From: a virus
IMG/VR virus record: IMGVR_UViG_3300048687_000113
Coordinates: 1 to 64,000 of that record
Strand: one strand, 5' to 3'
DNA length: 64,000 bases
Shown here: positions 27,481 through 45,553 of the stretch, one piece after another
Numbering within the stretch: position 1 is the stretch's first letter
Layout of the letters: every line of letters begins with the position of its first letter
Translations under genes and position numbers: made by a program
The notes under the pieces: model-generated
The model's input: the letters and a program-made list of their open reading frames with translations, nothing else
Databases searched by the model: none
Told to the model about the DNA's origin: nothing

Positions 27481-27502
27481 GACCCCGCCAGGAGGCGGGG
27501 TC
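27481..27502 (-). terminator. Strong terminator between the Lsr2 paralogues
   Basis: GACCCCGCC / GGCGGGGTC with AGGA (TCCT on minus) loop, followed on the minus strand by TTTTT. Separates the two Lsr2-like genes, so each likely has its own promoter. Confidence 0.85.
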
Positions 27503-27569
27503 ATGTGGCTTTCTGATGAAGGTTGCTTGAGAGGCCTGTAAGCGGGGCGGATACGGGTTCCGTGCAGGA

Positions 27570-29587: not shown

Positions 29588-29590
29588 TTT

Positions 29591-29911: not shown

Positions 29912-30131
29912 TTTCTACTTTCCTCAGGGATTAACCGATGACCCGGCCCGGCATGACGCACCGGGGGTACTTTCGGCTGCGATCCGCTCCAGCCCACCAC
30001 CCGGACCTGCGGGATGGGCTGGCGAAGAAGGCAGCAGATCGGCGCCGGCCAGCGCGTTGCTGCTGTGCCCGTGCTCAGGTCGTCACACGGGGAATTCTTC
30101 CATCGAGGTCTGACAGCGGGAGCGAGAGCGG

Positions 30132-30170
30132 CCCGACCCCCTTGACTCACGTGGAGCCTAGGGGGTCGGG
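30132..30170 (-). terminator. Terminator hairpin
   Basis: Perfect 11-bp CCCGACCCCCT / AGGGGGTCGGG with a 17-nt loop, 20 bp past the stop of the gene at 30190. No long U-run. Confidence 0.65.
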
Positions 30171-30189
30171 TCGTGGTCCAGGAGCGGTG

Positions 30190-30921
30190 CTACTCCACGC
30201 TCTTGGGCGCGCGTTTCCGACGGATGACGACTCCGCCGGCCGGCACCGTGCGGGGCGGTTCGACGGGAGTAGGCGACTTGTACGGCCGGTGCACCCGCTC
30301 GTCGGTCGTCTCCATGACTTCGGACTTGCAGGCGTCGAAGCCGACGTGCCAGAGCACATCGTTATCGCCCTTGAAGTCCAGGACGCCGTAGCCGCTCGGC
30401 TTGAACTGCTCCCCGGGCGTGAGCTTTTGGCACGCTTCCAGCAAGCTGCGGGCCTTGACCACGCCGGTCAGGTGAGTGGGCCGGTACACGATGACGTACT
30501 CGTGCTCCTCCAGGGTCTCCGGCTCCCCTTCCCCCTCGGCAGGCGCCGTGGTGTCCGCCGGGGACAGCGGCTTCACCTCTGGCGTCCTCATGAACTTGCG
30601 CAGCGCATCCGACCACGCCACCAGGGCGGCAGCACCTTCACGTACCTGCCGCTGCTGGTCCGCGTTGGCGATCATGCCCACGGTGATCCACTCGTCGGCT
30701 TCGCCCTCCGTGGTCTTCGTCTTGTACACCGCATCCGGCGGCGCCTCCTCGGCCTCCGCCTGCGCGCACACCCGCTCGACGAACTCGGGGCCGAGCACAC
30801 CTCCGAGAGCGTGGAAGGCCCAGACGTACGGGTGGCCGTGCCACTGTTCCGGAGCGGCCGGCAACGACATGGCGATGCCCTCGGGCGCCTCCAGCCGGGG
30901 CCTGTCATCGGTCACGGACAT
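30190..30921 (-). CDS. Unknown protein
   Basis: 243 aa from ATG 30921, overlapping the upstream stop (TGATG). Middle region is acidic and Pro-rich (about 120-140). The C-terminal part has alternating strands (HEYVIVYRPTHLTGVVKA, YGVLDFKGDNDVLWHVGF). No motif recognised. Confidence 0.68.
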   Translation of the reverse strand: MSVTDDRPRLEAPEGIAMSLPAAPEQWHGHPYVWAFHALGGVLGPEFVERVCAQAEAEEAPPDAVYKTKTTEGEADEWITVGMIANADQQRQVREGAAALVAWSDALRKFMRTPEVKPLSPADTTAPAEGEGEPETLEEHEYVIVYRPTHLTGVVKARSLLEACQKLTPGEQFKPSGYGVLDFKGDNDVLWHVGFDACKSEVMETTDERVHRPYKSPTPVEPPRTVPAGGVVIRRKRAPKSVE

Positions 30922-31187
30922 CACGTGCCCTCCAGGATGTTGTGCCGGGTGGTGGTCAGCTCGTGCACACGGTCGAGCACCGCGCCTTCGTCGGGCTTGC
31001 CGACCTCGACGAGCGTGATGCGGCGGCCGTCGTGGACCGCACCGAGGAACAGCGGTGCGAGGTCGGCTATGGCGTCCCGGTCCGTGACGATCTTGCCGAC
31101 GTAGAACCGGCCGTCGTCGATACCGGGAGTCGTCTCGTCGTCGCCGTCCTTCGGGTCGGCGTACACGTACAAGAAGCGGGCGCTCAT
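30921..31187 (-). CDS. Unknown small protein
   Basis: 88 aa, alpha/beta-like (RFLYVYADPKDGDDE, FYVGKIVTDRDAIADLAPLF). Coupled on both sides by ATGA-type overlaps. No family recognised. Confidence 0.68.
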   Translation of the reverse strand: MSARFLYVYADPKDGDDETTPGIDDGRFYVGKIVTDRDAIADLAPLFLGAVHDGRRITLVEVGKPDEGAVLDRVHELTTTRHNILEGT

Positions 31188-31657
31188 GAGGCTGTCACCG
31201 AAGCGGGCGCGGCGGTGTCGAAGCCGCCGAACACCAACTTCGCCATCTCGCTGAGCAGGTCGTCGTGAATGTGCTGCCCGAGGTCCATTTCGTGGCTGGC
31301 CTGTGCGTCGTCGTAGGCGCGCTGGTCCTTCGCGTCGCCGTCCTCGTTGAGCAGCTCGTCCCGCTGCTGCTCCCACTCGTCGTCGGTGTCGAGAGCGGAG
31401 GCCAGGGCGGGAAGAATCGGCTTGCCGGGGACCCGCTCGAAGCTGGTGGAGCCGACCGGATACCGGAGGAACTCGCTCTCACCGTGGCGGTAGAGGAATG
31501 CGATGCCGTCCTCGATCTTCACCAGGAGACCGGTGGCCCCCTTCGCGTTGGAGAAGACATTGATCATGGCGCCGGCGAGCGCCTGGCGCTCCTCCTTGCT
31601 CAGGTCCACCAGGCAGCCGCTCGTGGGCGGCAGCGTGCGCTCTTGAGTCTCGGACAT
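31184..31657 (-). CDS. Unknown protein, paralogue A of a pair
   Basis: 157 aa. Shares layout with the next gene upstream (31660-32118): a strand with TGLLVKIEDGIAFLY, an Arg/Pro segment KPILPALASALD, and an acidic helical tail with a DxxD/H spacing (HEMDLGQHIHDDLLSEM). The pair probably arose by duplication. AAGGAGAG precedes the ATG. Confidence 0.7.
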   Translation of the reverse strand: MSETQERTLPPTSGCLVDLSKEERQALAGAMINVFSNAKGATGLLVKIEDGIAFLYRHGESEFLRYPVGSTSFERVPGKPILPALASALDTDDEWEQQRDELLNEDGDAKDQRAYDDAQASHEMDLGQHIHDDLLSEMAKLVFGGFDTAAPASVTAS

Positions 31658-31659
31658 GG

Positions 31660-32118
31660 TTACTCTCCTTCGTAGTGCGGGTGCAGGTCGCACACCGGAA
31701 TGTCGTTCAGCTCCTGCATGAGGGCCTGGTGGATGTCGATCAGGCCCACTTCCCATTCGCCGCGCCGACGGTCCCAGTTGTCCTGGTCGCTGATCGGGGC
31801 CTCGCTGTCGCCGCCGCGCAGGGCCCGGTCGGTGTCCTGCCACTGCCGCTCGTAGGCCACCGCTGCGGCGAGCGCGGGCCGGGGCGTCTTGTCGAGGTGC
31901 CGTATGAAGGTCACGGCACTGATGCGGAAGCGCTCGGTACCGCGAAGTCGCGGCTGGTAGATCTCGGCGTACTTGCCGTCGACCCGGATCAGAAGTCCGG
32001 TGTAGCCGTATGTGCCTTGAAGCACCTGGATGTGGTGGCCGACGAACGCGGCCAGCTTCTTCGGTCCGATGCCGCGCATGTGGTCCAGGCGGGGCTTCTG
32101 GTCGACCACGGAGGCCAT
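31660..32118 (-). CDS. Unknown protein, paralogue B of a pair
   Basis: 152 aa. TGLLIRVDGKYAEIYQ and TPRPALAAAVAYERQWQDTD match the equivalent parts of the 31184 gene, as does the C-terminal helical end. An N-terminal GIGPKKLAAFVGHH resembles a helix-hairpin-helix, which would suggest DNA contact. Confidence 0.7.
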   Translation of the reverse strand: MASVVDQKPRLDHMRGIGPKKLAAFVGHHIQVLQGTYGYTGLLIRVDGKYAEIYQPRLRGTERFRISAVTFIRHLDKTPRPALAAAVAYERQWQDTDRALRGGDSEAPISDQDNWDRRRGEWEVGLIDIHQALMQELNDIPVCDLHPHYEGE

Positions 32119-32212
32119 GGGGTCACCTTCTATATCGAGGGATGATGCGATTACGTCCGGCAATGACCGCGCGCGCCCCCGAAGGGGCTCCACGGACGCG
32201 GCCGGGTCGGTG

Positions 32213-32710
32213 TCAGTGCGGGAGGTTGTTGTAGAAGTTGCGCAGGGCCTGCCACTTCTCGCGGGGCAGCTCACTGGCGCGGGCCGTGTACCACTCGCCG
32301 TGTGGTCCGCCAGGCATACAACCCAACCTGCGCTCGATGATCTTTCCGGCGTCCGTGAAGTGGATGAAGGCGCTGCCGTAGTGGTCCTGCTGGGTGCGGC
32401 GCGGCACGAGCAGACCGACGATGCGGGGCGCTCCTGCCCACCAGTTGCCGTGATAGGTAGCGACCATCCGGACGCGGGAGATGTTGCGCAGAGAACTGTT
32501 GCGCAGGAGCTTGCACTTGAACTCGTCCTGGGGCGTCTGCTGCGGGCGGCCGTTCTCCACGTGCGGGGCGCACTCACCGCACGGCTTGTCGGATTCATCG
32601 GCGCCGGGTGTCTCGTGGTCGACGCCGTCGGGGTACTCCTCCGGGTCGGCCTCGATGACGTACTCGCGGCACCTGGGGCACTTCAGGTTGCCCTCGTTGA
32701 CCATGACCAT
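32213..32710 (-). CDS. Zinc-ribbon protein
   Basis: 165 aa. N-terminal CPRC and a later CGEC form a probable ribbon (residues about 11-47). The rest is Arg/Trp-rich with strands (VRMVATYHGNWWAG, PRIVGLLVPRRT). First gene after an operator and leader hairpin, so likely the head of the operon running to 30190. Confidence 0.7.
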   Translation of the reverse strand: MVMVNEGNLKCPRCREYVIEADPEEYPDGVDHETPGADESDKPCGECAPHVENGRPQQTPQDEFKCKLLRNSSLRNISRVRMVATYHGNWWAGAPRIVGLLVPRRTQQDHYGSAFIHFTDAGKIIERRLGCMPGGPHGEWYTARASELPREKWQALRNFYNNLPH

Positions 32711-32745
32711 CTGACGTTCCTCTCGGGGGTGTTGGAGACGTGGAA

Positions 32746-32791
32746 GGGCCCGCTCGCCGACACGTCTGTGCCGTGACCAACGAGCGGGCCC
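32746..32791 (-). promoter_or_regulatory. Leader hairpin between operator and gene
   Basis: Perfect 11-bp GGGCCCGCTCG / CGAGCGGGCCC with a 24-nt loop. It lies downstream of the palindrome and upstream of the 32710 start, so it would be in the mRNA leader. Attenuator or terminator of a readthrough transcript; no U-run. Confidence 0.55.
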
Positions 32792-32801
32792 GAATTGAGA
32801 T

Positions 32802-32821
32802 CCTCACTCGTTCGAGTGAGG
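32802..32821. promoter_or_regulatory. Palindromic operator candidate, family 1 (best copy)
   Basis: CCTCACTCGTTCGAGTGAGG, a 9+2+9 palindrome with perfect arms. It lies 92 bp upstream of the 32710 start, nearly the same distance as the 26409 copy from its gene (93 bp). Confidence 0.72.
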
Positions 32822-32858
32822 CAATAACAGTTCCTTGGTAATGGGGCTGACATGAAAA

Positions 32859-32882
32859 AGCGGCCCCTTTGTGTGGGCCGCT
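32859..32882 (-). terminator. Terminator
   Basis: AGCGGCCC / GGGCCGCT with an 8-nt loop, followed on the minus strand by TTTTTC. Ends the transcript of the 32906 gene. Confidence 0.8.
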
Positions 32883-32905
32883 CGTGTTGTGGTGGCGTCC
32901 GGGCG

Positions 32906-33631
32906 TCAGTAGTGCTCGTAGTGGCTTCGGACCAGGAAGAGGAAGTCGACCGAGAGGGTGTTTCGGGCGGTTCCGAGAATCTCGCCGTTGGCGCGGTCGA
33001 TGATGATCTCGTAGCCCGGCTTGGCTGACGATGCCAACACAAAGCGGGTCCCGTCGCGTTCGGTGTAGACGCAGGGGGCGTCTTGCGGGCAGTTACAGAT
33101 CGGCACCACGTCCAGGAGCTGGATCTCGGCCGCCGTGGTGGGGACGAACGAGCGGTGCACGAGCATCTGGCGCAGCATCTCGTCACGCTCGTGCTGGTCG
33201 CCGGGGCGTTTACGGTCGGCGTCGTAGATGGCGCAGTTGACGGTGCGCTCTGAGTCGGGCTCGCCCTTGACCGCGAACGTGACGCGGTAGCGGGTGCGGC
33301 CGTCGCCGGGTTCCGGCTTTTCGTGCTCCGCTGGTGCGTCACTGTCAGCGGGGGCCTCCGGCTCTGCCTGATGCTCCTCGAAGTGAAAGGTGTAGGAGTA
33401 GGCGACCTTCTCGCGGTCGGCGTCCAGGAAGTGCAGGGTGTCGCCCTCGATGCGGACCGCCAGTGCTTTCGGCCAGTCGGTCCACCACACGCCGTCCTGT
33501 GAGCGGGTGGCCAGCTTCTTCGTCTGCACCTTCTCCACCGTGCGCTCACCGGAAAGGTGCGGGTGCACGTTGTTGGTCACGCTCACGCGCTGGCCGGTCT
33601 TGATACGTCGCTTGAATGCAGCGAGGCTCAT
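32906..33631 (-). CDS. Unknown protein with SH3-like N-terminus
   Basis: 241 aa. The N-terminal ~85 residues (GQRVSVTNNVHPHLSGERTVEKVQTK... LAVRIEGDTLHFL) alternate short strands, as in SH3-like barrels. An acidic Pro-rich linker (about 90-110) precedes a C-terminal domain with CNCPQDAPCVY. No function known. Confidence 0.7.
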   Translation of the reverse strand: MSLAAFKRRIKTGQRVSVTNNVHPHLSGERTVEKVQTKKLATRSQDGVWWTDWPKALAVRIEGDTLHFLDADREKVAYSYTFHFEEHQAEPEAPADSDAPAEHEKPEPGDGRTRYRVTFAVKGEPDSERTVNCAIYDADRKRPGDQHERDEMLRQMLVHRSFVPTTAAEIQLLDVVPICNCPQDAPCVYTERDGTRFVLASSAKPGYEIIIDRANGEILGTARNTLSVDFLFLVRSHYEHY

Positions 33632-33930
33632 TCCGATTCCTCCTCGATCTCTTTCAGTGATTCGGGCCCCTGGTGGGATTCGTTGGGGCCGGCAACGTCG
33701 GACCAGTGACCGTCCCAGCGCACGTGCAGCGGCCAGGGACACGCGGACGCGGCTCGGGGAAAGCCACACTTCGCGTGCCCGCACTCCCGGCCTGGACCGC
33801 CCTCGCCGACCTGCTGCTGCCACTTGTGCCGCTTGCACAGGCACACCACGACCGTGCCTATCCAGGTGCCCCAGTCGGTTTCGACGTGTGTGACGCGGGT
33901 GCCGGGGACGAGCCGAAGCGCGGTCTTCAC
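33628..33930 (-). CDS. Unknown small protein with Cys pattern
   Basis: 100 aa from GTG 33930, sharing GTGA with the upstream stop. SH3-like start (LRLVPGTRVTHVETDWGTWI) and Cys at VVCLCKRHKW and ECGHAKCGF, probably a metal site. Coupled to 32906. Confidence 0.67.
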   Translation of the reverse strand: MKTALRLVPGTRVTHVETDWGTWIGTVVVCLCKRHKWQQQVGEGGPGRECGHAKCGFPRAASACPWPLHVRWDGHWSDVAGPNESHQGPESLKEIEEESE

Positions 33931-34388
33931 GACTTGGTCGTGATCGTGAGGCTGTACGTGGTCTCTTCGGCCTCCAGGGTGCCGGAGCCTCCGGGGGCGC
34001 AGGCCACGCTCTCCGCGATGCCGGCATAGGCCGCGTCCTCGGTCTCCGCGCGGACCTCGACCGTCACGTGCACCCAGGAGTCCTTGGGTGCGTACCAGTC
34101 CTGGCACCGGTCGGTGATGCTGGGCGGCTCGAACCAGAACAGCGCCGACGCGGCGCCCTCCTTGGACTGGAACTCGGGCATGGCGATCTGCTGGCGGGCC
34201 GGGTCCGTGGTCCAGTCGGCAACCCAGCCGGCACCGGAGGTTTCGTAGACGTGGCCGAGGAGCTGGTCACTGGTCCAGTGCGCGACGCGGGCGTGCACGG
34301 CGTAGTGCTCCCGGCCCGGCTCGGTCTCCGTGAAGATGAAGTGGGGCTGGATGGAACCGCCGACGGGCGGCAGCGACTTGATGGGCAT
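33927..34388 (-). CDS. Unknown protein
   Basis: 153 aa, beta-rich (HYAVHARVAHWTSDQLLG, WVHVTVEVRAETEDAAY, TTYSLTITTKS). No Cys knuckle, unlike many neighbours. Part of the coupled array. Confidence 0.67.
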   Translation of the reverse strand: MPIKSLPPVGGSIQPHFIFTETEPGREHYAVHARVAHWTSDQLLGHVYETSGAGWVADWTTDPARQQIAMPEFQSKEGAASALFWFEPPSITDRCQDWYAPKDSWVHVTVEVRAETEDAAYAGIAESVACAPGGSGTLEAEETTYSLTITTKS

Positions 34389-34394
34389 GGGTGT

Positions 34395-34646
34395 CTACTC
34401 CGTTCTGCCGGTCTCGACCGGCTTGTTGTAGCGGTGGAGGAACTGGGCGGCCCAGGTGCGGGAGGCGAAGCCGGGAACGCCGCCTCCGCTGCCCGGGTGA
34501 TCGCCGGGGAATTCGGCGACCCAATGGCACACGCCGTCGGGGTCCTGCCACACGACGCCGTACTCCGTGCTCGGTTCAGTGCGGTCGATGACGCGGTCCC
34601 CGAGCGAGCCGGTGTTTCTCGTGAAGGCGAAGGGAAGCTCGGGCAC
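34395..34646 (-). CDS. Unknown small protein
   Basis: 83 aa from GTG 34646, two bases before the upstream stop region. Trp-rich with an Arg-helical end. No motif. Confidence 0.6.
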   Translation of the reverse strand: MPELPFAFTRNTGSLGDRVIDRTEPSTEYGVVWQDPDGVCHWVAEFPGDHPGSGGGVPGFASRTWAAQFLHRYNKPVETGRTE

Positions 34647-34648
34647 GG

Positions 34649-35704
34649 TTACTCCCCGCTCGGGTACTGACGGGAGGAGAACTGGACCGTGGCCAGGGCG
34701 CCCCACTCGTCGATGACGGCGGCGAGCAGGTCATCGAACTCGATGCCTTCCGCCACGGTGAGACGGCCCATCTCACTTCCCTCGGCCGAGTACAGAACTG
34801 CCTCGGTCGCCTCCCGGTGCCAGATCGCGAACGGCATGCTGCCGCTGTCGTTGACTCGGTGGACGAAGTGGAAGACGAGCTGGCGGAAGTCCTCGCGGTA
34901 TGCCAGGTCGATGAGTGCCGGAATCCAGCACTCGTGCTCGCGGAAGTCGGCGACGCGGGCAAGTCGCTTGCAGTCCACGCACCGGAACAGGAATGCGCCG
35001 TGCGGGTTGTTGTTGTATCCGCGTCCGGTGTTGGCGAGCCGGTGTCCGGACTCGCGAAGGAACCGGTTGCGTGTCGGAATCTGCGCCTCGTGGTCGGGCT
35101 TGTCGGCGGCCCGGTAGGTGGCCAGGATCTGATGCAGCCCGTCCGCGCCGAAGAGCCGCTCCATTAGGCTCCAGACCGGTGCTCTCTCCCCGTCACGGTC
35201 GAGGTCGGCGAGGACCGTCGACCACACCTTCCATTCGAGGAGCTTGTCGCCCGTGAGCGGGTAGTGCGGGTGGTCGTCGGGCTTGTTGACCCCGGCCGCC
35301 AGGTCGTCGCCCACATGCAGCCTGATGACGGTCTGCCGGTCGACGTCGTTGAGTGCGAACAGCTCGACCTCGAAGAGCTGCTTCACCACGCGCCGGCCGG
35401 TTTCCTCGTCATCCACGTGCGTGGCCCCGGCGTACCGGCCGAGGTGCAGGATCTGGTGGGTGCGGCGGATCTCGTTGAGGACGTCGATCATGGAGTAGCC
35501 CCCGGTTTCAGAGTCGTGCACTTCCGCGCAGAGTTCGCAGATGTACCCGCCCGGCACCCGGTACTTCCGGGTGTTGGGAACGGGGCCGTGACCGTTGCCG
35601 AATGCGCTCGGGCATTCGGCGTTGGCACAGTAGAAATGGCTCTGCGCTTCGGGCTCGGGGCCGCCGTCCGGCCACTCAGGACCGACGTAGACGCTGCGCG
35701 TCAT
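34649..35704 (-). CDS. Unknown protein with two zinc ribbons
   Basis: 351 aa. First ribbon near residues 25-65 (YCANAECPSAF and YICELCAEVH), second near 240-265 (FRCVDCKRLAR, HECWIP). In between are helices with a DRDGERAP loop. Two ribbons suggest nucleic-acid binding. Coupled by ATGA to the 35701 gene. Confidence 0.72.
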   Translation of the reverse strand: MTRSVYVGPEWPDGGPEPEAQSHFYCANAECPSAFGNGHGPVPNTRKYRVPGGYICELCAEVHDSETGGYSMIDVLNEIRRTHQILHLGRYAGATHVDDEETGRRVVKQLFEVELFALNDVDRQTVIRLHVGDDLAAGVNKPDDHPHYPLTGDKLLEWKVWSTVLADLDRDGERAPVWSLMERLFGADGLHQILATYRAADKPDHEAQIPTRNRFLRESGHRLANTGRGYNNNPHGAFLFRCVDCKRLARVADFREHECWIPALIDLAYREDFRQLVFHFVHRVNDSGSMPFAIWHREATEAVLYSAEGSEMGRLTVAEGIEFDDLLAAVIDEWGALATVQFSSRQYPSGE

Positions 35705-36318
35705 GCCGTCTCTCCGGCGAGCCAGTAGGTGTTGTAGCCGTACTCGAACCGGACCGGGCCGCTTGCCTCCCGGACCAGCTCGACCGCGCCGTGCCGGTCG
35801 ACGGTGATGCCACGGGTCAGATGCTGCTTGGCGCCCATCTCGGTGCTGCGCAGGAAGTGCAGCAAGTAGTACTTCGCCTGGTGGAACGGGAGCGGGGTGG
35901 TGTGGCTGCCGACAGGTGCACGGTGGCCGGCGTCGCTCTCCTGCCAGCCGGCCGCGAGCTTCGGGGCGCCGGCCACTTCGGGCCCGGCCCAGTGCCGGTC
36001 GATCGCTTCGCCCACGCGCTGCTCGAAGATCCGGTCCCACACGTACGTCTCGTAGGACATCTCCACGTACTTCTTCAGCGCTTCGTCGGCGTTGTCCGTG
36101 CCCTTGGGCCCCTCGAACCGCGTGCCGTGAGCCCACTCGCCGTCGCGGAATCCGTCGTCCACGGTCTTGCCGTTGTACATGCGCCCGACGTACCAGTTGT
36201 CGACGCCGTCTCGGCCCTCCCGGACTCCCAGGAACTGGCCGTAGAAGCGGTCGTCGTAGTGCTTTTGCCGGGCCTGATGGACGATCTCCCAGCCTTCTAC
36301 TCCGACCTTCTCGTTCAT
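35701..36318 (-). CDS. Unknown protein
   Basis: 205 aa, many Trp, Tyr and charged residues (KHYDDRFYGQFLG, DNWYVGRMYNG), predicted alpha/beta. No catalytic motif. Coupled on both ends. Confidence 0.68.
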   Translation of the reverse strand: MNEKVGVEGWEIVHQARQKHYDDRFYGQFLGVREGRDGVDNWYVGRMYNGKTVDDGFRDGEWAHGTRFEGPKGTDNADEALKKYVEMSYETYVWDRIFEQRVGEAIDRHWAGPEVAGAPKLAAGWQESDAGHRAPVGSHTTPLPFHQAKYYLLHFLRSTEMGAKQHLTRGITVDRHGAVELVREASGPVRFEYGYNTYWLAGETA

Positions 36319-36881
36319 GCCTCCTCCTTACTGACCGACTGGTCGGTCTGCTGACGTGGTGTGTATGGCTTCAACTCGTGCAGAGGCAGCCGCTTGGGGT
36401 TGCAGGGCGTGCCGCTCGGCGCGTAGTCGGTGCGCCGGCAGATTGCGTAGCCGGTGAGCGAGCCTTCCTCGGAGTAGCCATCGGAGTCCGCCTCCAGGCT
36501 CTCCACCCGGTAGGGCCGGCTGCGGAAACTGACCACCGTGCCGACCAGGGCTCTGAACTCGGAGGCCCACAGGTCCGTGGCCACCCACCGCAGAGGGAAA
36601 TCGATGATCTGCTCGGGATGGCTGTAGCCCCCGATCGCGTCCGGCGGTCCGACCCGGTTGATCACTGAGTCGATGACTCGGTACGAGGAATTGCGGGGGT
36701 TTTTGCTGGTCAGTTGAATCTCCAGCATTTCCGCCTGGCCCGCGCGGATTTCTGCTGCGTCCTTGGGCTCCAGGTCATCGATCGGCATCCGGCCGTCGGT
36801 GTAGGCCCCGGTCGGCTTGCCCTGCTTGATGATGCGCAGCCCTAGCAACTCCGGCCGCTCCGGCAGGCGTTCGCGCCTCAT
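36315..36881 (-). CDS. Unknown protein with possible SH3-like fold
   Basis: 188 aa. Central region with WVATDLWASEFRALVGTVVSFRSRPYRVESLE recalls SH3-like barrels found in neighbouring genes. N- and C-termini are basic and polar. Coupled by ATGA. Confidence 0.67.
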   Translation of the reverse strand: MRRERLPERPELLGLRIIKQGKPTGAYTDGRMPIDDLEPKDAAEIRAGQAEMLEIQLTSKNPRNSSYRVIDSVINRVGPPDAIGGYSHPEQIIDFPLRWVATDLWASEFRALVGTVVSFRSRPYRVESLEADSDGYSEEGSLTGYAICRRTDYAPSGTPCNPKRLPLHELKPYTPRQQTDQSVSKEEA

Positions 36882-37696
36882 GCGGCCACCGCCTGCTGCT
36901 GCGCGGCCTTCCACTGCTCGTACAGGGCGGCGGCGGGGGCGGGTACGAGCCAGGCGAACAGGTCGGCCCACTCCCGGTAGATCTCGCCCTCCGACTTCTG
37001 GTAGTACGAGTCGCTGGCCGGGTCGACGATCAGTTCCGGATTTGCGGTCAGCTTCTCGACCGTGTCCTGGCACATGCGCTCGGTGCACACGACCTCGTAG
37101 CCGAGGCGGGCCATCTGGTCGGAGCCGTCGCCGAAGCACTCGTCGCACACGCGCACGCGCTGCCCGCTGACCTTGTGGACGAGCATCACCCTGGCGCCCT
37201 TGTACGTGTAGCTGGCGCAGCGCAGGCAGTAGAAGTAGCCCTCCTTGTTCAGCGCGCCCCTGTGGACGTCCGACCACTCCCGGAAGACCTCGAAGTCGTC
37301 GTGGATAGCGGTGACTTCAGAGATCTTGGCCCGGTAGGCGTTCCAGTGCTCCAGCTCGATGTACGCGAAGGCAGGTCGGGTTGGCGTCCCCCGGTACCTT
37401 CCGCCGTTGGTCTTCTGGAAGTGGTCGATGCGCCCGTAGTGGTGCTCCAGGCGCCCGTCCTTCTGCTCGACCACGACGCGCACCATGTCGCCGACCCCGA
37501 ACGGCCGGCGGTGCGTGTCGACGGCCTGGCGCCACTTCTCCTCGCCGGCGGCCTCGAACCCGAATCCGGGCCCCAGGTCGTAAAAAGCGTCACGCATGAT
37601 CCCGGCGAGGTTGTACGCGTTGGGGTTTCGCCCCTCCTTTTCCAGCGTCGCGATAACCACCGCTCGCACAGCACGCTTGCTTCCGTATCCGTTCAT
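36878..37696 (-). CDS. Zinc-ribbon protein heading a coupled unit
   Basis: 272 aa from ATG 37696, with GGGAGGGG upstream. An SH3-like segment (GVGDMVRVVVEQKDGRLEHHYG) is followed by a ribbon formed by YFYCLRCASYTYKG and VRVCDECFG. It heads at least eight overlapping genes down to 32906, so the 37697-37844 gap should contain their promoter. Confidence 0.72.
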   Translation of the reverse strand: MNGYGSKRAVRAVVIATLEKEGRNPNAYNLAGIMRDAFYDLGPGFGFEAAGEEKWRQAVDTHRRPFGVGDMVRVVVEQKDGRLEHHYGRIDHFQKTNGGRYRGTPTRPAFAYIELEHWNAYRAKISEVTAIHDDFEVFREWSDVHRGALNKEGYFYCLRCASYTYKGARVMLVHKVSGQRVRVCDECFGDGSDQMARLGYEVVCTERMCQDTVEKLTANPELIVDPASDSYYQKSEGEIYREWADLFAWLVPAPAAALYEQWKAAQQQAVAA

Positions 37697-37844
37697 GTTT
37701 CCCCTCCCTGATCCGCAATGAATGACGTGAGCGCCCAGCACGGGAATTTGTACCCGCCGATTACCGACTGGGGGAGAGCAGTAATCGCAATCATTTGACC
37801 GGGCCTGTTTCAACTAGCTTTGCCGTACTACTCCAGGCCGACGC

Positions 37845-38393
37845 TCACCACGCCTCACCGCCCTTGATGGCGTCGAGCTGGGCGGCGGCCAGGCCCGCAG
37901 ATTCACGACTCGGACCGAACCACTTCGCCCCCTGGTCCCACCGGCACACCCAGAACTGGCGCCAGCCCCGGTAGGCGAGCAGCCGGTACACCCTGCCGTC
38001 GTCGGCCGTGTACGTCTCCAGTGCACGGCTGTTGACGTAGTACTCGCGGTCGGGCGTGACGCCGGGCTTGTGGTCGTGGAAGCCGAACGGCGCGTTCGTG
38101 ATCCACGTGCCCTCGTGCGGCGGCTCGTCCTGTAGCCGGATCTCCCGCACCGCGTAGATGCGGTCGCTGGCCGTGGCGAAGCGCTGCTCGCCGTTGCTGA
38201 GCCGGAAGGCGTAGCGCGTGCCGCCGTATATGGAGGCCGAGCTGCTCGGGAGGATCGAGACGTCCCAGATGGGGATGAGTTCCCGGCCGGGCTCCATGTC
38301 GACGACCTCGCGCGGCACCCGCATGCCGGGCTTGATCTCGGCGGGGTGTACGGGCTCGATGAGTTCGGTCATGCCTCGAAGAGACCACTGCAT
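37845..38393 (-). CDS. Unknown protein
   Basis: 182 aa from ATG 38393; an ATG at 38372 is an alternative. Beta-rich with repeated short strands (MRVPREVVDMEPGREL, RVYRLLAYRGWRQFWV). Two bases between its start and the upstream stop. Confidence 0.67.
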   Translation of the reverse strand: MQWSLRGMTELIEPVHPAEIKPGMRVPREVVDMEPGRELIPIWDVSILPSSSASIYGGTRYAFRLSNGEQRFATASDRIYAVREIRLQDEPPHEGTWITNAPFGFHDHKPGVTPDREYYVNSRALETYTADDGRVYRLLAYRGWRQFWVCRWDQGAKWFGPSRESAGLAAAQLDAIKGGEAW

Positions 38394-38395
38394 GA

Positions 38396-38731
38396 TCAGC
38401 TCTCCCTGTTCTGTTCGATCGGCTCGGTTGCTGCGGCATCCGCGCGGGTCAGCGGGACGCCCATGCGCGCGGCTTCCTGCTCGGCCACGACCACCCCGGC
38501 GGCAAACTTGCCGCCCTGCCACGTGCGCGGGTTTAGGCGGTCCAGGAGCGTGTGCAGGTCGCCGGATGCCTCGGTCAGCGCGAAAGGCCAGGTGTACCCA
38601 ATGCCGATCACCTGTTCGCGCTCGATCACCAGCACGTCGCCGTCACGGATCTCGTCCCGGCACTGGACCGCGCCGTACGCCTCACCGGTGCTGTAGAAGG
38701 TCCACACCTGCGGCACACGCGTGTCGCTCAT
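38396..38731 (-). CDS. Unknown small protein
   Basis: 111 aa from ATG 38731, TGATG overlap. SH3-like (GDVLVIEREQVIGIGYTWPFAL) followed by a helical tail. No motif. Confidence 0.67.
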   Translation of the reverse strand: MSDTRVPQVWTFYSTGEAYGAVQCRDEIRDGDVLVIEREQVIGIGYTWPFALTEASGDLHTLLDRLNPRTWQGGKFAAGVVVAEQEAARMGVPLTRADAAATEPIEQNRES

Positions 38732-39303
38732 CACTCAGCCCCCAACTTCCGGAACTTGCCCGTGCACTTCGGGCAGAGCAGGTCCCCGTCCCCGTCCTGG
38801 TCCAGTTCGTAGAGCCGGATGTACGGCCCCTGCGGGCCGTCGCCCTCGACGCAGAACTGCCACCTGTAGGTGTCTGCGGTCTCGTACAGGTGGCCCCCGT
38901 CGCACTCGATCCACGCGGAGCTGAAGCCCAGGAAGTCCTCCGGCTCCGGGGCCGTGATCTTGAAGAACTCCGGGTGCTCGACCCTGCGGGGCCCGCTCGT
39001 CGCGACGTAATGGTCCTCGCCGAGCTGGAACACCGTGTAGTGGAAGTCCTCGTCCAGCCACGAAACGGTGTTCTGAGTGTTCTCGGTCTTCAGAGCGCCC
39101 CAGTGGGGCCCTTCGACCGGTACGCCGCGCCGCTCCAGCCAGGACAGGAACTGCATCGGCCCGTACGGGAACTTGCCGTGGACCTCGTACCACTTCTCGA
39201 AAAGCTCATCGAGCCGCACACACGGCTCGGTCTTGTCGTCCATCCACGCCTCGGTTTCGCCGATCACGGCTTCCGAGTCGATAAATTTCAGGTCGATTCC
39301 CAT
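38731..39303 (-). CDS. Unknown protein with C-terminal Cys pair
   Basis: 190 aa. Acidic and aromatic, ending with LLCPKCTGKFRKLG, a half-ribbon. Middle shows alternating strands. Member of the coupled array. Confidence 0.68.
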   Translation of the reverse strand: MGIDLKFIDSEAVIGETEAWMDDKTEPCVRLDELFEKWYEVHGKFPYGPMQFLSWLERRGVPVEGPHWGALKTENTQNTVSWLDEDFHYTVFQLGEDHYVATSGPRRVEHPEFFKITAPEPEDFLGFSSAWIECDGGHLYETADTYRWQFCVEGDGPQGPYIRLYELDQDGDGDLLCPKCTGKFRKLGAE

Positions 39304-39305
39304 GG

Positions 39306-40169
39306 TTACGCACCGTCCAATTCCTGGAATCCGATGCGGCCGTGGCAGGCCGCGCAGTCGCACGTCCACACGTCGTGCAGTTCCTCGGGCTTAAAGACCC
39401 CCGTCGGCGACCAGGGCGCCGAGTCCGTCTGCCAGTCCCAACGGACCTTGACCATGTCCGCGCCGCTGGTGCCGATCACGTACGCCTCGAACGTGAACGG
39501 CGACCGCGCACGTGTCAGGCCACCGGGCCGATCCGGCACCGCGTAGAACGGGCGTGCCCTGACGAGCAGACCGGCGTTGGCCAGCGTTTCTGCTGCGTCC
39601 TTGGCGTGGGTCACCGGCGGACCGATCGGGCGCTCTTCGCTGCTGAACGCCACGTACTTCGTGTACGTCGGGCCCTCGTCGGGGTGGGCGAAGGTTTCGG
39701 CCGGCACTTCGGCCGGCGCCGCCTCGGCCGGCTCGCCCTTCTCAGCCTCAGGATCGGGCTCGCCCTCGGGCTCGTCGTCCTCCGGATCGTCCTCGGGCTC
39801 CGGCTCGGGCAGCACTTCGACGTCGACCGACACCCACTTGAGTCCGCCAGCCGTGAAGCTCTCGGTCTCGCCGGGCTTCATCTCGTCGACGCGCTTCTCG
39901 ACCCACTCGCGCACCGACTCCATGTGGTGGTGGCGGCAGTCCCCGTACGCACGGCACCGCAGCGAAACCGGGTCGAGGACACACCCGCCCTCGCCGAAGT
40001 CCTCCATGCCGGAGAACGTGAGCTTCGGGTGGGCCTCCAGCAGAGACGTGATGGAATTCGCGACCGAGTCCGGCCACTCGAATTCCTCGGTCTCCCCCTC
40101 CAATAGATCCTGGCTCGTCTTGCCGCGAACGGTGCGCTGCTGGCGCCATTCCGTCGTTACACGGATCAT
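39306..40169 (-). CDS. Unknown protein with long Glu/Asp/Pro linker
   Basis: 287 aa. An N-terminal domain with a Cys pair (LRCRAYGDCRHHH) is joined by an acidic Pro-rich linker (about 118-155, many Glu, Asp, Pro) to a C-terminal SH3-like domain ending WTCDCAACHGRIG. Charge distribution is extreme. No function known. Confidence 0.7.
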   Translation of the reverse strand: MIRVTTEWRQQRTVRGKTSQDLLEGETEEFEWPDSVANSITSLLEAHPKLTFSGMEDFGEGGCVLDPVSLRCRAYGDCRHHHMESVREWVEKRVDEMKPGETESFTAGGLKWVSVDVEVLPEPEPEDDPEDDEPEGEPDPEAEKGEPAEAAPAEVPAETFAHPDEGPTYTKYVAFSSEERPIGPPVTHAKDAAETLANAGLLVRARPFYAVPDRPGGLTRARSPFTFEAYVIGTSGADMVKVRWDWQTDSAPWSPTGVFKPEELHDVWTCDCAACHGRIGFQELDGA

Positions 40170-40526
40170 TCATTCCCCCTCGGAATCGCGGCAGTACTCG
40201 CACGGCTTGTGGTGCAAGTTCTCGCAGTCCTCGTCATCCTTGGCGTGCTGGTCGATCAGCCACTGCACGTTCTCCTCGTAGTAGCCGAACTCCCGAGCCA
40301 GGGCCGCTACCGCTTCCACCTCCTCACAGGTCAAGAAGCAGTCGTAGTCGCCGGGAAGAGACCACAACACCTCGTCGCACTTCTTGAGGAAATTGCCCGC
40401 CAGTTCAGCTCGGACCTTGATCCTGCTGGCCGCTTGCCGACGGCGGTACGCCTTAACTTTTCGCGCTTGCCGCACTTGCCCCCTCCAGGGATTGAGCCAT
40501 TCGATTGACGGGATAACAGTTCTCAT
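40170..40526 (-). CDS. Unknown small protein with Cys motifs
   Basis: 118 aa. Arg/Lys-rich N-terminal 35 residues, then CFLTCEEVE and a C-terminal KPCEYCRDSEGE. Basic half may bind nucleic acid. Starts one base from the next stop region. Confidence 0.66.
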   Translation of the reverse strand: MRTVIPSIEWLNPWRGQVRQARKVKAYRRRQAASRIKVRAELAGNFLKKCDEVLWSLPGDYDCFLTCEEVEAVAALAREFGYYEENVQWLIDQHAKDDEDCENLHHKPCEYCRDSEGE

Positions 40527-40531
40527 TTGCG

Positions 40532-40586
40532 CAGCGAAAAGGGAGCCGACCGGTGCAACACGCGCGCACCGAGGCTCCCTTTTCGC
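40532..40586 (-). terminator. 15-bp stem terminator with nested hairpin
   Basis: AGCGAAAAGGGAGCC / GGCTCCCTTTTCGCT with a 25-nt loop that itself pairs GGTGC / GCACC. Ends the transcript of the 40596 gene. Confidence 0.75.
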
Positions 40587-40595
40587 TCGGTTGAT

Positions 40596-41642
40596 TCAGT
40601 TGTCGTACCGGTAATGGCTCACGTCGGCGTACTTGTCCTGGACCCGCTTTACGAGTCGGTCCCAGGTCTCGTCCCACTGCCCGCGAACGTCCTCCGGAAC
40701 GTCGTCGTACCGGAGAACACGGCCGGGCCAGATCTTGACCCACTTCTTGTGTCCGTCGTCGGCGGCACCGTGGCCGGGCTCGTCGATGTACAGATCCACG
40801 ACCTCGTCGCCGTCGTTGTCGGTTCTCATCGGCCATGACACGACCGCCGGTATCAGCTCCCGACAGATATCGATCACGATGCGCTCGTCGGCCTTCAGCT
40901 CCAACGGCTCACCACTGGCACGCGATGAACGCGTGGACTCCCACCAGTTCTCGAACTCCCATGCGCGGTGATCCTGCGGGTACTTGGAGCGGAACGCTTC
41001 GGTGTACCGGTCGACCTTCGCCGCCCAGGTCTTGCGCTCCGCATCGGTGAGTTCCCGTGTGGGATTCGGTGGGTAATTCCACTGGCCCGCTTCTCCGGGC
41101 CGACCCACGCGCGGCGTGCGGTACTTGTGGTTGTACTCCCGGACCGTCATGCCCTCCGGGTAGTCGTTCATCTGGCTACCGGGTGCGGCGTAGCCCCGGA
41201 ACGCTCCGATGGCGTGGCGGAATGCCTCGGCGCTCATGAGGTCGATGTCCGCGCGCTTGTCGGCGAGCTTCTGCTGGATCTCGGGGTCCTGGCCCAGGTG
41301 TTCACGGGCCAGATCACGGATCGTGTTCATGCGCGGCACGTCGAAGGTCCGCTCGACCACCTGCACTTGGCCGCTGTAGAGAATCCAGGCGACCGGTGTC
41401 CCGTCGACCGTGACCGTGCACCGGAGCGCCGTGGGAATCACCGGCGAGCGTCCCCAGCTCATGTAGTCCAGGGTCCGAGCGTCAGCCGCCGCCACGTGCG
41501 GCGCATACTCCTCATCAGTGAGCAGGCCACGCGGGTGCTCGCAGGTGAGCACGGCCTGGTGCTTGAGCGTGAACCCCTTCACCTTGTGGTGGGTATTGAG
41601 TGTGCGAAGCGCGGCCACCGTCGCGCCGATATCGAGCTGCAT
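40596..41642 (-). CDS. Unknown 348-aa protein
   Basis: 348 aa, one of the largest in the array. The middle (about 180-260) is helical and Arg/Trp-rich (TEAFRSKYPQDHRAWEFENWW). The C-terminal ~90 residues are strand-rich and acidic (DGDEVVDLYIDEPG). GGGGGG precedes the ATG. No recognised domain. Confidence 0.7.
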   Translation of the reverse strand: MQLDIGATVAALRTLNTHHKVKGFTLKHQAVLTCEHPRGLLTDEEYAPHVAAADARTLDYMSWGRSPVIPTALRCTVTVDGTPVAWILYSGQVQVVERTFDVPRMNTIRDLAREHLGQDPEIQQKLADKRADIDLMSAEAFRHAIGAFRGYAAPGSQMNDYPEGMTVREYNHKYRTPRVGRPGEAGQWNYPPNPTRELTDAERKTWAAKVDRYTEAFRSKYPQDHRAWEFENWWESTRSSRASGEPLELKADERIVIDICRELIPAVVSWPMRTDNDGDEVVDLYIDEPGHGAADDGHKKWVKIWPGRVLRYDDVPEDVRGQWDETWDRLVKRVQDKYADVSHYRYDN

Positions 41643-41785
41643 AAAGCCCCCCATTGTGTGTGCCGAGTTGCTGCGGCATCCGGGCCGACCCCACGGCCGG
41701 CCGGAGCGCAGACAGGCGTGCAGCGGGTCGCGCACAGCCACGGCCGGCCTGGGTACCGAACGGCACCGAGGCCCGCTGAAGCTGT

Positions 41786-42169
41786 CTACGCGTCCACCGG
41801 CCGCTCGTCGTCGATCGGCCGCTCGCTGTCGATCAGGTCCTGGATCTCGTCGAGCCGGAAGCCGAGGTGTCGGTTCGAGCGGTCGAGTGCGCCGGGGGCA
41901 CGGTGGTTGGCCAGCTCGTCGACCATGCGCCGCATCACTCCGGCCTGCTGGGCGAGGTCATCGGCGAGCGCGAGCAGCTTGCTGCTCATGTCCAGCCGGT
42001 CAAGGGACTCGCGGAGGAACGCGAGCGCATTGACGTCGATAGCGCCGGAGTTGGCGAACGCGTAGGCCAGGCTCTCGACTTCGCTCTGCACGAGCGTGAT
42101 CTCACGGCCGACCGGACCTTCGAGCCGGGTAAGGGCCTGGTGCTCGGACTGGAATGGGACGATGGTCAT
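41786..42169 (-). CDS. Helical acidic protein
   Basis: 127 aa, mainly helices with Leu heptads (residues about 25-90, SEVESLAYAFANSG, LRESLDRLDMSSKLLALAD), likely a coiled coil. Overlaps the upstream stop by ATGA. Confidence 0.67.
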   Translation of the reverse strand: MTIVPFQSEHQALTRLEGPVGREITLVQSEVESLAYAFANSGAIDVNALAFLRESLDRLDMSSKLLALADDLAQQAGVMRRMVDELANHRAPGALDRSNRHLGFRLDEIQDLIDSERPIDDERPVDA

Positions 42170-42504
42170 GCGGACACCTCTTTCTGGATCTCGTTGGGAA
42201 CGAACCCCGGGCGGGCCGCTAGGCCCTCGTACATGGGGTCGAACCATTGCGGGTGAAGCAGGTTGGGCCAGAATTCGACCCCGTCGATGGTTTCGATCCG
42301 CGTGATCGCGAGCGGGTGTTCCTGAGCACGCGTGCACCGGAAATGCGCCCCCTGCCGGGGCGTGGTGTCGGTGTAGTCCTCGCGCAGACAGGCGAACTCC
42401 CTGCTGAACTCCAGGAAGTTGACCCATTGGGCCGCTACCGTGGCGTCACTGTCACCGAACTGCGTCGTGACACCCGGGACGTACCGGAATTGTGCGGCGC
42501 TCAT
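42166..42504 (-). CDS. Unknown protein
   Basis: 112 aa with aromatic-rich strands (WVNFLEFSREFACLR, EFWPNLLHPQWFDPM). GGAGG precedes the ATG. No family recognised. Confidence 0.66.
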   Translation of the reverse strand: MSAAQFRYVPGVTTQFGDSDATVAAQWVNFLEFSREFACLREDYTDTTPRQGAHFRCTRAQEHPLAITRIETIDGVEFWPNLLHPQWFDPMYEGLAARPGFVPNEIQKEVSA

Positions 42505-42526
42505 ACCGCGACCTCCTGTCGATTGG

Positions 42527-43003
42527 TTAGCGGACGTACATGGGCTCGGAGTCCCGTCCGTACATGCTGGACTTCCGGTTCGTGGCGTCGAATGCGCGGT
42601 AACGCCGGTTCACGCGCTCGACGCGCGACTGGGGGCCGAACCGCTGCCGGGGCTTGACCCCGTTCCACAGCGCCTTGCGCTCGATACGGTGGCGTCGGTG
42701 GGCAGGTATTTCCGGGGCGAGGATCTTGAAGTGCGTCCGCCGGGCACGCAGCCTTTTCGCGTTCAGCGGGGGCCGCTTCATCGAGCGCATTTCGTCTGCA
42801 ACGTCCATGCGACTGAGGCGCCGATTACTGGCGATGACCATGCGCCCGATCACGTACGCGGTATCGGTCATCCCCGACCGCTGTGCGCGCAGGTTCGCGA
42901 ACCGGCTCTCAACGAACAACCCATGCCCGTAATGCACGTGGTGCGTGGAGTCGAGATTCAGAGAGCGCCGAGCCGCAGCTCGGCGCAGATTTTCGTGCTG
43001 CAT
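42527..43003 (-). CDS. Very basic protein
   Basis: 158 aa, extremely Arg-rich (RRAAARRSL, RRHRIERKALW, RVERVNRRYRAF). High positive charge suggests RNA or DNA binding. Similar Arg-rich composition is shared with the next two genes, unlike the acidic genes further along the array. Confidence 0.65.
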   Translation of the reverse strand: MQHENLRRAAARRSLNLDSTHHVHYGHGLFVESRFANLRAQRSGMTDTAYVIGRMVIASNRRLSRMDVADEMRSMKRPPLNAKRLRARRTHFKILAPEIPAHRRHRIERKALWNGVKPRQRFGPQSRVERVNRRYRAFDATNRKSSMYGRDSEPMYVR

Positions 43004-43063
43004 AGTGCCTCCCGGCGTTGTTGCGGCATCCCGGACGATTCCCGGGATGTTCCTCGCGCTGGA

Positions 43064-43432
43064 TCAGCAGGGCTGTTCCTCCACGCGCATGTCGCATGCG
43101 CGGCACGTTCGGCTGTCGGTGCAGCACTCCGTGAGGTCCGTGTTGGCTCCGGCCACGTGCATCTCGTATCGAGTGGCGATTCCCGCCCGGTACAGGACGA
43201 CCTCAGCCGCCTTTTTGGCTATGGATTCCGTGCGCGCCCACACGTCCACGGTGTGCACGATGACCCCGTCCGCATTCCGGCATTCCACGGTCATGCGGGT
43301 CTGGACGTTGACGTGATGGCCGTTCATGAGCCAGCAACCGCACGGGCGTTGAGAAAGCCCGTGCGTCAGCTCCTTCGTACGGAGTTCCACGACCGCATCG
43401 ATAGCCGTAAGCGGTCCAGTGGTGATGGTCAT
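43064..43432 (-). CDS. Cys-rich small protein
   Basis: 122 aa with ten Cys, including PCGCW and the C-terminal group ECCTDSRTCRACDMR. Probably binds zinc or Fe-S. The middle is strand-rich. Function unknown. Confidence 0.66.
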   Translation of the reverse strand: MTITTGPLTAIDAVVELRTKELTHGLSQRPCGCWLMNGHHVNVQTRMTVECRNADGVIVHTVDVWARTESIAKKAAEVVLYRAGIATRYEMHVAGANTDLTECCTDSRTCRACDMRVEEQPC

Positions 43433-43456
43433 GGGCTTACCTTTCGGGCATGGAAA

Positions 43457-43499
43457 AGGGCCGCACCCCGTGACGATTTCCCGTCCGGAATGCGGCCCT
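43457..43499 (-). terminator. Terminator
   Basis: AGGGCCGCA / TGCGGCCCT with a 25-nt loop, followed on the minus strand by TTTTCC. Ends the transcript of the 43517 gene. Confidence 0.75.
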
Positions 43500-43516
43500 G
43501 CTGTGTGGTGGTGTGG

Positions 43517-44041
43517 TTACGCGGGAGTGGTCGAGTAGCGGACCGACGCACCGTGCTTGCGCGCGAATACGTCGAGTCTGGCGCCGTCGCGCGTCATCGA
43601 GCCGACGTGTTCCCACATGCGCGGCGCGGCTCCCCACGTTATGTACTTGACGCAGTCCCGCACGTCCTGCGGCAGCTCAGCAGCCTTGATAGATGTGTAG
43701 ACGCGCGTGCGCAGGTTCGGCACGTGCGGCGCCTTGACCGGCTTCGGCGGCGTCTCCGGCTTACCCATAGCGGCTTCCCACAGAGTCTTGGGAGTCGGGG
43801 CCGGGCACCGAGTTTCAAGCGGCGTGAGCGGCAGGATCTTGGGGGAAGGCTTCGCCGCAAACGTGGCGGACACCGTGGCGTGCGTGCGCGCGAGATTCTC
43901 TACTGCCTTCACACTCAGCGCGGCGTGCGTGCCCGTGGCGCCCATTTCAGCGCCACGCATGTGGTCGAGAAATGCCAGATCCTTCCGGCGCTTGTCTGCG
44001 ACGCGTGCGCGCTTACGGGCGCGATTGGTAGAACGGCTCAT
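43517..44041 (-). CDS. Basic protein
   Basis: 174 aa, basic N-terminus (NRARKRARVADKRRKD) then Pro-rich linkers. No known domain. Coupled by ATGA to the first gene of the array. Confidence 0.65.
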   Translation of the reverse strand: MSRSTNRARKRARVADKRRKDLAFLDHMRGAEMGATGTHAALSVKAVENLARTHATVSATFAAKPSPKILPLTPLETRCPAPTPKTLWEAAMGKPETPPKPVKAPHVPNLRTRVYTSIKAAELPQDVRDCVKYITWGAAPRMWEHVGSMTRDGARLDVFARKHGASVRYSTTPA

Positions 44042-44541
44042 GATCCTTTGTTCTCCTTTTCCAGGGTGCGGACGATTCGGCGCAGATCCCGAGCGATGTT
44101 GCCGTACGTGTCGCGCGCTATACCCTTAGCGGAGCGCTGCATTTTCAGCGCGTAGTCACGTGCCGCGCGCATTTCACTGATCACGCGCGTGTCGTAATAC
44201 GGGCAGGCAGCGTCAACGCGTACGAGGAACGCGTAGCCGTTGTTGTCCCCGTGACCCATGCCGCGCGCAAAAGACCCGGGCACATAGGTGGGAGAGTTCC
44301 CCAGTTCCTTGGGCGCGTCCGAAAGGACGTGACGCTTAGGCGTGCGGAGGTTCTTACCCGTGTGCCGCTTGTGGGGCGCGTTTACCTTTGCGCTCGTACG
44401 GTCCCCACGGAGATTGATCTTGCCCTTGTAGTTCACCGGGTAGTTACGCGCTTTGTGACTGTTCGTGTTCGGCGCCATTCGCGCCTGAGAAACCGGCGGA
44501 CCGAAAGCAACCGTTCCGGCCCCGTAGTGACTACCGCTCAT
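44038..44541 (-). CDS. Basic protein, first gene of the minus array
   Basis: 167 aa from ATG 44541, with AAGGGGG upstream. Lys/Arg/Asn/His-rich first 90 residues, a helical C-terminus (MQRSAKGIARDTYGNIARDLRRI). Starts immediately beside the structured-RNA region, so a divergent promoter pair is expected at 44542-44600. Might bind that RNA; speculative. Confidence 0.67.
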   Translation of the reverse strand: MSGSHYGAGTVAFGPPVSQARMAPNTNSHKARNYPVNYKGKINLRGDRTSAKVNAPHKRHTGKNLRTPKRHVLSDAPKELGNSPTYVPGSFARGMGHGDNNGYAFLVRVDAACPYYDTRVISEMRAARDYALKMQRSAKGIARDTYGNIARDLRRIVRTLEKENKGS

Positions 44542-44587: not shown

Positions 44588-45553
44588 CTAGGTCTTGCAC
44601 CTAGACAGATCACCCGAGAATTTCCGAGCGTCAGAGCTATATTCGCGCGTCCCCATTTCCGTTTAGGTTTGTGTTCGCTTAGGCAACCACCCATGACCCT
44701 GTATCCACATAGACCATTGGGGGAGGAAATCTCGGCACGTGTGGCACTCCCCTTTCCACAGGGGGCGCCTACGCGGTAGCGGTTCATTTCGAGAGGATTC
44801 CTAGCGCCACTGCCCCAACGTTCAGAACAGTGTTTTAACGGACATTGAGGCCAACCCCACCTAGGAGGTTCCCGCCCCGTACCCAACCACCGCTTACCGG
44901 CTTACTCACCCTCACGGGCTTTCCTCGGCAGTTCAGCTGTCGTTCCGTGCTACTGGTCCCCTTGCCGATGCACGTTTCCGCGCACGGCCGAAGATTCCGT
45001 TGCAATGTCTCGTGACTTCGAAAGTTCATGGGCGCGAAAAACCGCGCGGTGAAGTCACCGGAGAGACACTGCGTCCCTACACAACTACCTCTCGTGCCAG
45101 GAAATCGCCGCTCAGTTCCCAACCCCTGCCAAGGGGCTTAACCGCTAGGTGGCCCGATCGCTTCACAGCGTCGAAACTGACCTAGCAGCCGTCCAGAGGT
45201 GACGCGTCCGTAAAGGTAGGCACTGGCGTGCGCGGACTGACGTCACGATGGGACGGGAAACTGGCAACCAAGACCGTAGAGGCTTAAATGAGGCTCTCTC
45301 CCCTGTGCGAGCAAGAGAGGGCTTTAGCCACGGTCACGCGTGGCGAGGAAATGAAACGCCACGTGTGCCAGGAATACCGGGATAGGACCGGCGTCACACC
45401 CGCTAGACGCACGGGTGCCATAGGGCACGGCGAGGGAATTCCCCTCGCTCTGATCACCCCCCTTTCGCGCCCCCCGCCCGCCGGATTGGCGAGCTGCGGT
45501 GGGGACAGACACGTTTCTACGGCATCACGAGGGTGTTGTGATGCCCTATTTTG
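44588..45553 (+). ncRNA. Candidate large structured noncoding RNA
   Basis: No believable gene, yet at least nine stable stems: 44588/44599 (6 bp), 44926/44937, 45012-19/45051-58 with nested 45032/45043, 45123/45132, 45144-50/45180-86 with nested stem, 45293-45300/45315-22, 45336-45/45357-66 (10 bp), 45397/45412, 45430/45442. A final GGCATCAC/GTGATGCC stem (45521/45538) is followed by CTATTTTGT. Three stems contain G.U pairs that work on the plus strand but would be A-C mismatches on the minus strand. Boundaries are approximate. Large ornate phage RNAs such as GOLLD and ROOL are the closest known idea; identity is not shown. Confidence 0.6.

Follow-up and report, generated by a model that had tools for sequence, protein, structure and literature searches.

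A 64,000-nucleotide stretch of viral DNA (the window) carries, between about 44570 and 45640, a conserved structured RNA of ~1 kb that would be read from the minus strand, directly upstream of a ~20-kb gene array on the same strand. Both the structure and its strand are well supported. We tentatively favor, at slightly less than an even chance, the reading that this RNA is a giant minus-strand 5′ leader that would act in cis to antiterminate transcription of the gene array in the manner of an rRNA operon. Positions 1-64,000 of a 109,243-base IMG/VR virus record (IMGVR_UViG_3300048687_000113) make up the window, which encodes RecA, Lsr2, a serine integrase and a queuine tRNA-ribosyltransferase, with a terminase, portal, major head protein, tail sheath and DNA polymerase encoded beyond the window in the same record. 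Terminase identity is 55% to the Streptomyces phages BRock, GiJojo, pSt2308, LuckySocke and Alone3, and 49-87% to 19 IMG/VR contigs. The virus is a temperate, Streptomyces-type relative of the Borockvirus group (BRock) with a serine integrase, and its host is most likely Streptomyces or a near genus.

The region 44588-45553, described beforehand as free of any credible gene, contains only short open reading frames; four of the five that we checked gain stop codons in the homologous phage sequence G001 and all five are broken by frame-disrupting indels relative to it, and on these grounds a coding reading was dropped. Folded as a single sequence, the plus strand reaches -381.8 kcal/mol (z -4.46, with 0 of 20 dinucleotide shuffles as good) and the minus strand reaches a lower absolute energy of -421.4 (z -3.78 against shuffles). 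Since both strands beat their shuffles, single-sequence stability cannot decide the strand.

To assign the strand we used the sole homologue, found in a 108-kb record among 19 relatives searched (G001, IMGVR_UViG_2934748790_000001). It is 73-75% identical to the window at the nucleotide level from the first array gene to ~45507 and matches in patches further up. Neighboring proteins with a match in G001 are mostly 30-58% identical, and on this comparison of 75% nucleotide identity with protein identities the RNA stretch ranks among the best-conserved parts of the surrounding area. We folded the window–G001 alignment with RNAalifold and compared it with column shuffles in which both conservation class and local composition are preserved, a test that replaced a strand-neutral, naive stem count with no discriminating power. 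For these two sequences the whole-alignment z-score is -12.0 on the minus strand and -3.3 on the plus strand, and the energy difference E(minus)-E(plus) is -70.1 kcal/mol compared to -24.8 +/- 8.3 in shuffles, favoring the minus strand by 45 kcal/mol over the shuffle expectation. Minus-strand alignment windows across 44884-45738 score between -2.7 and -6.1, with the core at 44884-45629, whereas plus-strand windows over this core mostly score 0 to -2.3, with the exception of a hairpin at 45521-45545 (-5.2), and flanking coding windows score between +1.2 and -2.1. A fold predicted from one sequence and read on the other likewise keeps its pairs better on the minus strand: the G001 fold, with a span limit of 300, has 21 broken pairs where 50.9 +/- 6.2 are expected, and its 15 double changes compare with 4.8.

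These comparisons give good support to conserved folding on the minus strand, which is also the strand of the array. An RNA on this strand reads into the minus-strand array, stopping no more than ~50 nt short of the first start codon, and would therefore be a leader, or lie within one, and not the divergent transcript proposed in the preliminary description. The structured non-coding RNA of that description is supported, but its plus-strand placement is contradicted by the conserved folding, and its limits of 44588-45553 are too narrow for a conserved unit that extends over ~44570-45640 in the alignment and its windows. It had also taken three stems with a G.U pair as possible on the plus strand only; compared with G001, none of them holds as proof of strand. 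Stem 44926/44937 lies within a stretch unconserved in G001, the plus-strand G.U of stem 45336/45357 becomes G-A there, and stem 45293/45315 is present in both sequences and can be drawn on either strand.

The minus-strand consensus of 44570-45640 comprises 35 helices with a total of 234 pairs, which form in the window as well as in G001 apart from one gapped cell, with a 5′ end near 45640 and a 3′ end toward 44570. Compensatory double changes occur at 22 pairs, compared to 11.0 in shuffles and 0-3 when pairing partners are slid; the model was built on the same two sequences that are counted, such that its 100% pairing holds by construction and the fair evidence comes from the shuffles and the one-sequence test. 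The plus-strand consensus has only 120 pairs formed in both sequences and 13 double changes. In the minus-strand model, long-range helix 2 joins a 5′ arm at 45580-45599 to a 3′ arm at 44684-44704 through 17 pairs and encloses ~0.9 kb; its duplex energy is beaten by 2 of 1000 shuffles in the window and is marginal in G001 (107 of 1000). Within the enclosed body, helices 13-19 form a multi-branch domain (45107-45268, local z -4.3 to -4.7) and helices 21-24 form a coaxial stem (45002-45072, local z -4.5 to -6.1) that includes two C-G to U-A double changes. Toward the 3′ end, helix 35 is a conserved hairpin, CTAGGT-gcaag-ACCTAG (44588-44604), 47 nt before the start codon of the first array gene. 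The hairpin GGCATCAC/GTGATGCC at 45521-45545 is listed in the minus-strand model with its strand undecided: it is terminator-like on the plus strand, where a T-rich tail is found, its stem is largely rebuilt in G001 by four double changes, and it scores -5.2 on the plus strand and -5.4 on the minus strand. This equal score on both strands means that the hairpin, although real, does not prove the plus-strand 3′ end for which it had been put forward.

To our knowledge, only a small number of large structured RNAs come from phages, and the function of none of them is settled. Rfam searches at curated gathering thresholds returned no family match in the window, and covariance models of GOLLD, ROOL, OLE, HEARO and the other Rfam giants had no match at E up to 10 in the window or G001. 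GOLLD RNAs are phage- or prophage-encoded, longer than 800 nt and elaborately folded (PMC12286853). Members of GOLLD also lie close to tRNA genes and assemble into homo-oligomeric nanocages. The window RNA is likewise a large phage RNA with an elaborate fold, but differs from GOLLD in lacking a match to the GOLLD model, which represents the universally conserved 3′ region, in lacking a tRNA island, and in lying directly upstream of an operon. ROOL, also a large and elaborately folded phage or prophage RNA, differs from it in the same two respects of model match and tRNA island. No tRNA gene was detected by ARAGORN and Rfam in the window or by Rfam in the remainder of the record. Together with the operon-head position, these results do not support GOLLD and ROOL, the closest precedents named beforehand, as relatives; the accompanying idea of a new class may hold, with only two members known.

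Further members were sought by a DNA search of phages and plasmids, 18-20-mer scans of viral contigs, a protein-based locus search, and covariance models R1 and R2 run over the 19 relatives and BRock, and across all of these G001 was the only homologue of the RNA. One candidate from the 18-20-mer scan (L030) was rejected as a chance match. DNA searches of 394 Streptomyces, 396 Streptomycetaceae and 329 plus 375 other genomes, draws that partly overlap, found no homologue of the RNA. Against the leader of another relative, G006, models R1 and R2 scored at noise level; short patches and an upstream hairpin nevertheless look shared between G006 and the window. This hairpin, ACGCACGGTAG/CTACC..GCGT at 46688-46740 on the minus strand, has an altered stem in G006 (ACGCACAGTAAT/ATTACCGTGCGT; L069 ~2700-2730, minus), which suggests that the structured leader extends upstream.

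The array downstream of the RNA spans 26513..44541 on the minus strand and consists mostly of small genes of unknown function, called from codon-position GC and family searches. Its first gene (44038..44541, minus) encodes a basic protein of 167 amino acids (pI 10.45) that is 69% identical in G001 and is the best-conserved protein near the RNA; searches returned no family and no PDB relative for it, and its AlphaFold model has pLDDT values mostly below 50. A terminator-like hairpin with a T run follows the second gene (43452-43498, minus), and a scan of the array placed further terminator-like sites at 32858-32883 and 27481-27502, with a total of 16 that is only slightly above the 12.2 in shuffles. 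Three minus-strand copies of the motif GAAC(T/C)GTT...TCA(C/A)TCGAA also occur in the array (40500-40522, 32811-32833 and 28536-28558). One copy lies a short distance beyond a terminator-like hairpin, and the three may be phage-specific promoters or operators.

We found no consensus promoter for the leader. Upstream of the RNA, an element, GTTTAATGGTGGGGGGTC, lies on the minus strand at 46886-46903, ~2.3 kb before the first gene; it is exact in G001 and recurs with 2-4 mismatches in G006, G015, G016, G018, G008, G010, G011, G021 and BRock. In the form TTTAA(T/A)GGTGGGGGGTC, the element is found in non-coding regions of ~10 relatives, with BRock copies (positions 25 and 112327) inside its direct terminal repeat of 221 nt, and may mark a genome end or a promoter. 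Farther along, the plus strand at 47531-48079 encodes a protein with a weak match to sigma region 4. The region 49600-49770 holds four CCCCGCGCACGCGGGGATGG-type repeats at a spacing of 46-49 nt; we take these to resemble actinobacterial type I-E CRISPR repeats, with spacers that are short and partly similar to one another.

The minus strand of the RNA carries a hairpin, GAGGAAAGCCCGTGAGGGTGAGTA (44903-44926), identical to the segment directly before boxA in Streptomyces rrn leaders. Read in the minus sense, the hairpin agrees with rrn leaders at 24 of 24 letters in some genomes and at 85% over ~50 nt. Searched with the RNA, 394 Streptomyces genomes yielded one kind of matching site, present in 12 of them and often in more than one copy, and in the inspected genomes of those 12 the site is just upstream of the 16S gene. 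Judged from sequence, this hairpin is the only recognizable RNA signal here, and it is in the minus sense. In Streptomyces rrn leaders, a promoter-proximal hairpin and boxA serve Nus-dependent antitermination. The window RNA is similar in carrying the identical sense-orientation hairpin, in heading a long transcription unit, in having untranslated structured RNA after the hairpin, and in having phage relatives with an exact boxA. It differs in that the pre-boxA hairpin is present without boxA (TTCCTTGAGAACTCAACAG; no site within 4 mismatches anywhere in the window), that it is followed by ~1 kb of structure peculiar to the phage and by genes for proteins, not rRNA, and that the hairpin is absent from G001. 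Identity to G001 falls to 60% at 44801-44991, and the rRNA-like hairpin is thus located where the RNA is variable.

Non-coding leaders with an rRNA-type hairpin are also present in five relatives, G008, G010, G011, G017 and G021 (an S. diastatochromogenes prophage), with boxA TTCCTTGAGAACTCAACAG after the hairpin exact in all but G008, where it has 2 mismatches. The leader can be seen running into a gene array in G011 and G021, and the records of G008, G010 and G017 end inside it. These three records (G008 at its start, G010 at its end, G017 at its start) stop ~320 nt past the boxA of the leader, as they would at a common genome or attachment end. Downstream of boxA the relatives share a conserved structured stretch on the array strand, with compensatory pairs in a five-sequence alignment. 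These boxA-type leaders resemble the window RNA in equivalent placement, a related upstream element, the rRNA-type hairpin and array-strand structure, and differ from it in their exact or near-exact boxA and in a structured part that does not align with that of the window. A covariance model of the boxA-type leader (R3) scored the window RNA at noise level, such that position and signals are common to both but common descent of the structured parts is not established, and the two may be unrelated. BRock has boxA alone, with 2 mismatches, at position 5472, and the Likaviruses Lannister, Hydra and Phettuccine carry both the rRNA-type hairpin and boxA; in Lannister, the one inspected, the pair is unannotated and precedes, by 120 nt, an operon that runs leftward at the end of the genome (L204 642-708).

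The arrays of two of these relatives contain predicted ribozymes, which distinguishes them from the array in the window, where no known ribozyme was found. In G011 (L076, IMGVR_UViG_2744054895_000001), two pistol and seven type-II hammerhead ribozymes are predicted within 8280-14135, downstream of the boxA leader; they all share the strand of the array, and almost every gene is followed by one. Hammerheads are also present in G018, in the Nonomuraea genome G020 and in G021.

In our preferred reading of the window RNA as an antiterminating leader, transcription would start on the minus strand at ~45.6-46.9 kb, and the nascent leader would fold and modify the elongating host RNA polymerase, acting either with the help of Nus factors or, like HK022 put RNA, by virtue of its own fold. 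The polymerase would then read through the untranslated kilobase and the terminators in the ~20-kb array, and the 0.9-kb body might be excised via the long-range helix. The terminator-like sites inside the array make antitermination plausible. HK022 put RNA is a short, leader-proximal lambdoid element of two hairpins (~70 nt), and the window RNA is more than 10 times longer. As the leader of a phage early operon, put RNA by itself suppresses pausing and termination (PMC9378689) and so gives the window RNA a functional precedent. Several observations weigh against antitermination: ~1 kb of conserved structure far exceeds the needs of known antitermination signals, the window lacks boxA, the hairpin is unconserved in G001, and R3 scores at noise level.

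The excess of structure over a short signal, extending through the whole kilobase, is also what gives weight to the main rival, a free-standing, trans-acting giant RNA on the minus strand that is closed by the long-range helix and cut from the leader. The 17-pair helix closing ~0.9 kb fits this reading, as do conservation above that of most neighboring genes and the adjacent basic protein, the best conserved nearby, which might bind this RNA. It has no Rfam relative, the duplex energy of its closing helix is only marginal in G001, and both the lack of a terminator ahead of the first gene and the conserved hairpin 47 nt before the start codon are better suited to a continuous leader; we consider it unlikely on balance. 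A cis leader and an excised RNA are compatible, as a kilobase left untranslated in a Streptomyces host would itself need protection from Rho.

The remaining readings are much less probable. A DNA-level element, in which the inverted repeats act as DNA at a replication origin or a packaging or terminal site, would agree with the recurrence of the nearby GTTTAATGGTGGGGGGTC in the direct terminal repeat of BRock, but that element lies 1.2 kb away on the upstream side of the core, Tandem Repeats Finder reported no array in the stretch, and hairpins acting as DNA would not be expected to show conserved folding that differs between strands; we regard this as improbable. The plus-strand reading first described, a non-coding RNA with its 3′ end at the 45521-45545 hairpin, is about equally improbable: the 45 kcal/mol preference for the minus strand, the plus-strand windows over the core at mostly 0 to -2.3, the loss of two of the three diagnostic G.U pairs in G001 and the array-strand structure of the relatives' leaders all count against it, despite a plus-strand fold that beats shuffles and a terminator-like hairpin with a T-rich tail and a stem kept by double changes. 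Least probable of all is a role of the RNA in priming or controlling replication of the prophage. Mycobacteriophages with RNA-based origins are known and set a precedent for long non-coding RNAs in prophages of actinophages (PMC7157519), but those systems adjoin parABS in phages with extrachromosomal replication; this virus instead encodes a serine integrase, and the proteins searched, a subset of the genes, included no partition protein.

We found no published description, in open-licence papers, of rRNA-type boxA leaders in these phages or of the leader in the window. As a giant structured phage RNA without a family, the window RNA is new; leader RNAs and large phage RNAs each have precedents. 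It is possible, though doubtful, that the window RNA represents a new ~1-kb phage RNA class that partly uses host rRNA-leader signals and heads a 20-kb operon, with a version in related phages in which the antiterminated transcript is cut by self-cleaving ribozymes between nearly every gene, giving rRNA-operon-like expression of accessory genes. The analysis shows that one homologue can be enough to settle which strand encodes a giant RNA, and the genomic context suggests a job for this one in processive transcription of a long, partly untranslated operon. If this is true, actinophages copy rRNA leader signals, and relatives add arrays of self-cleaving ribozymes that cut the transcript.
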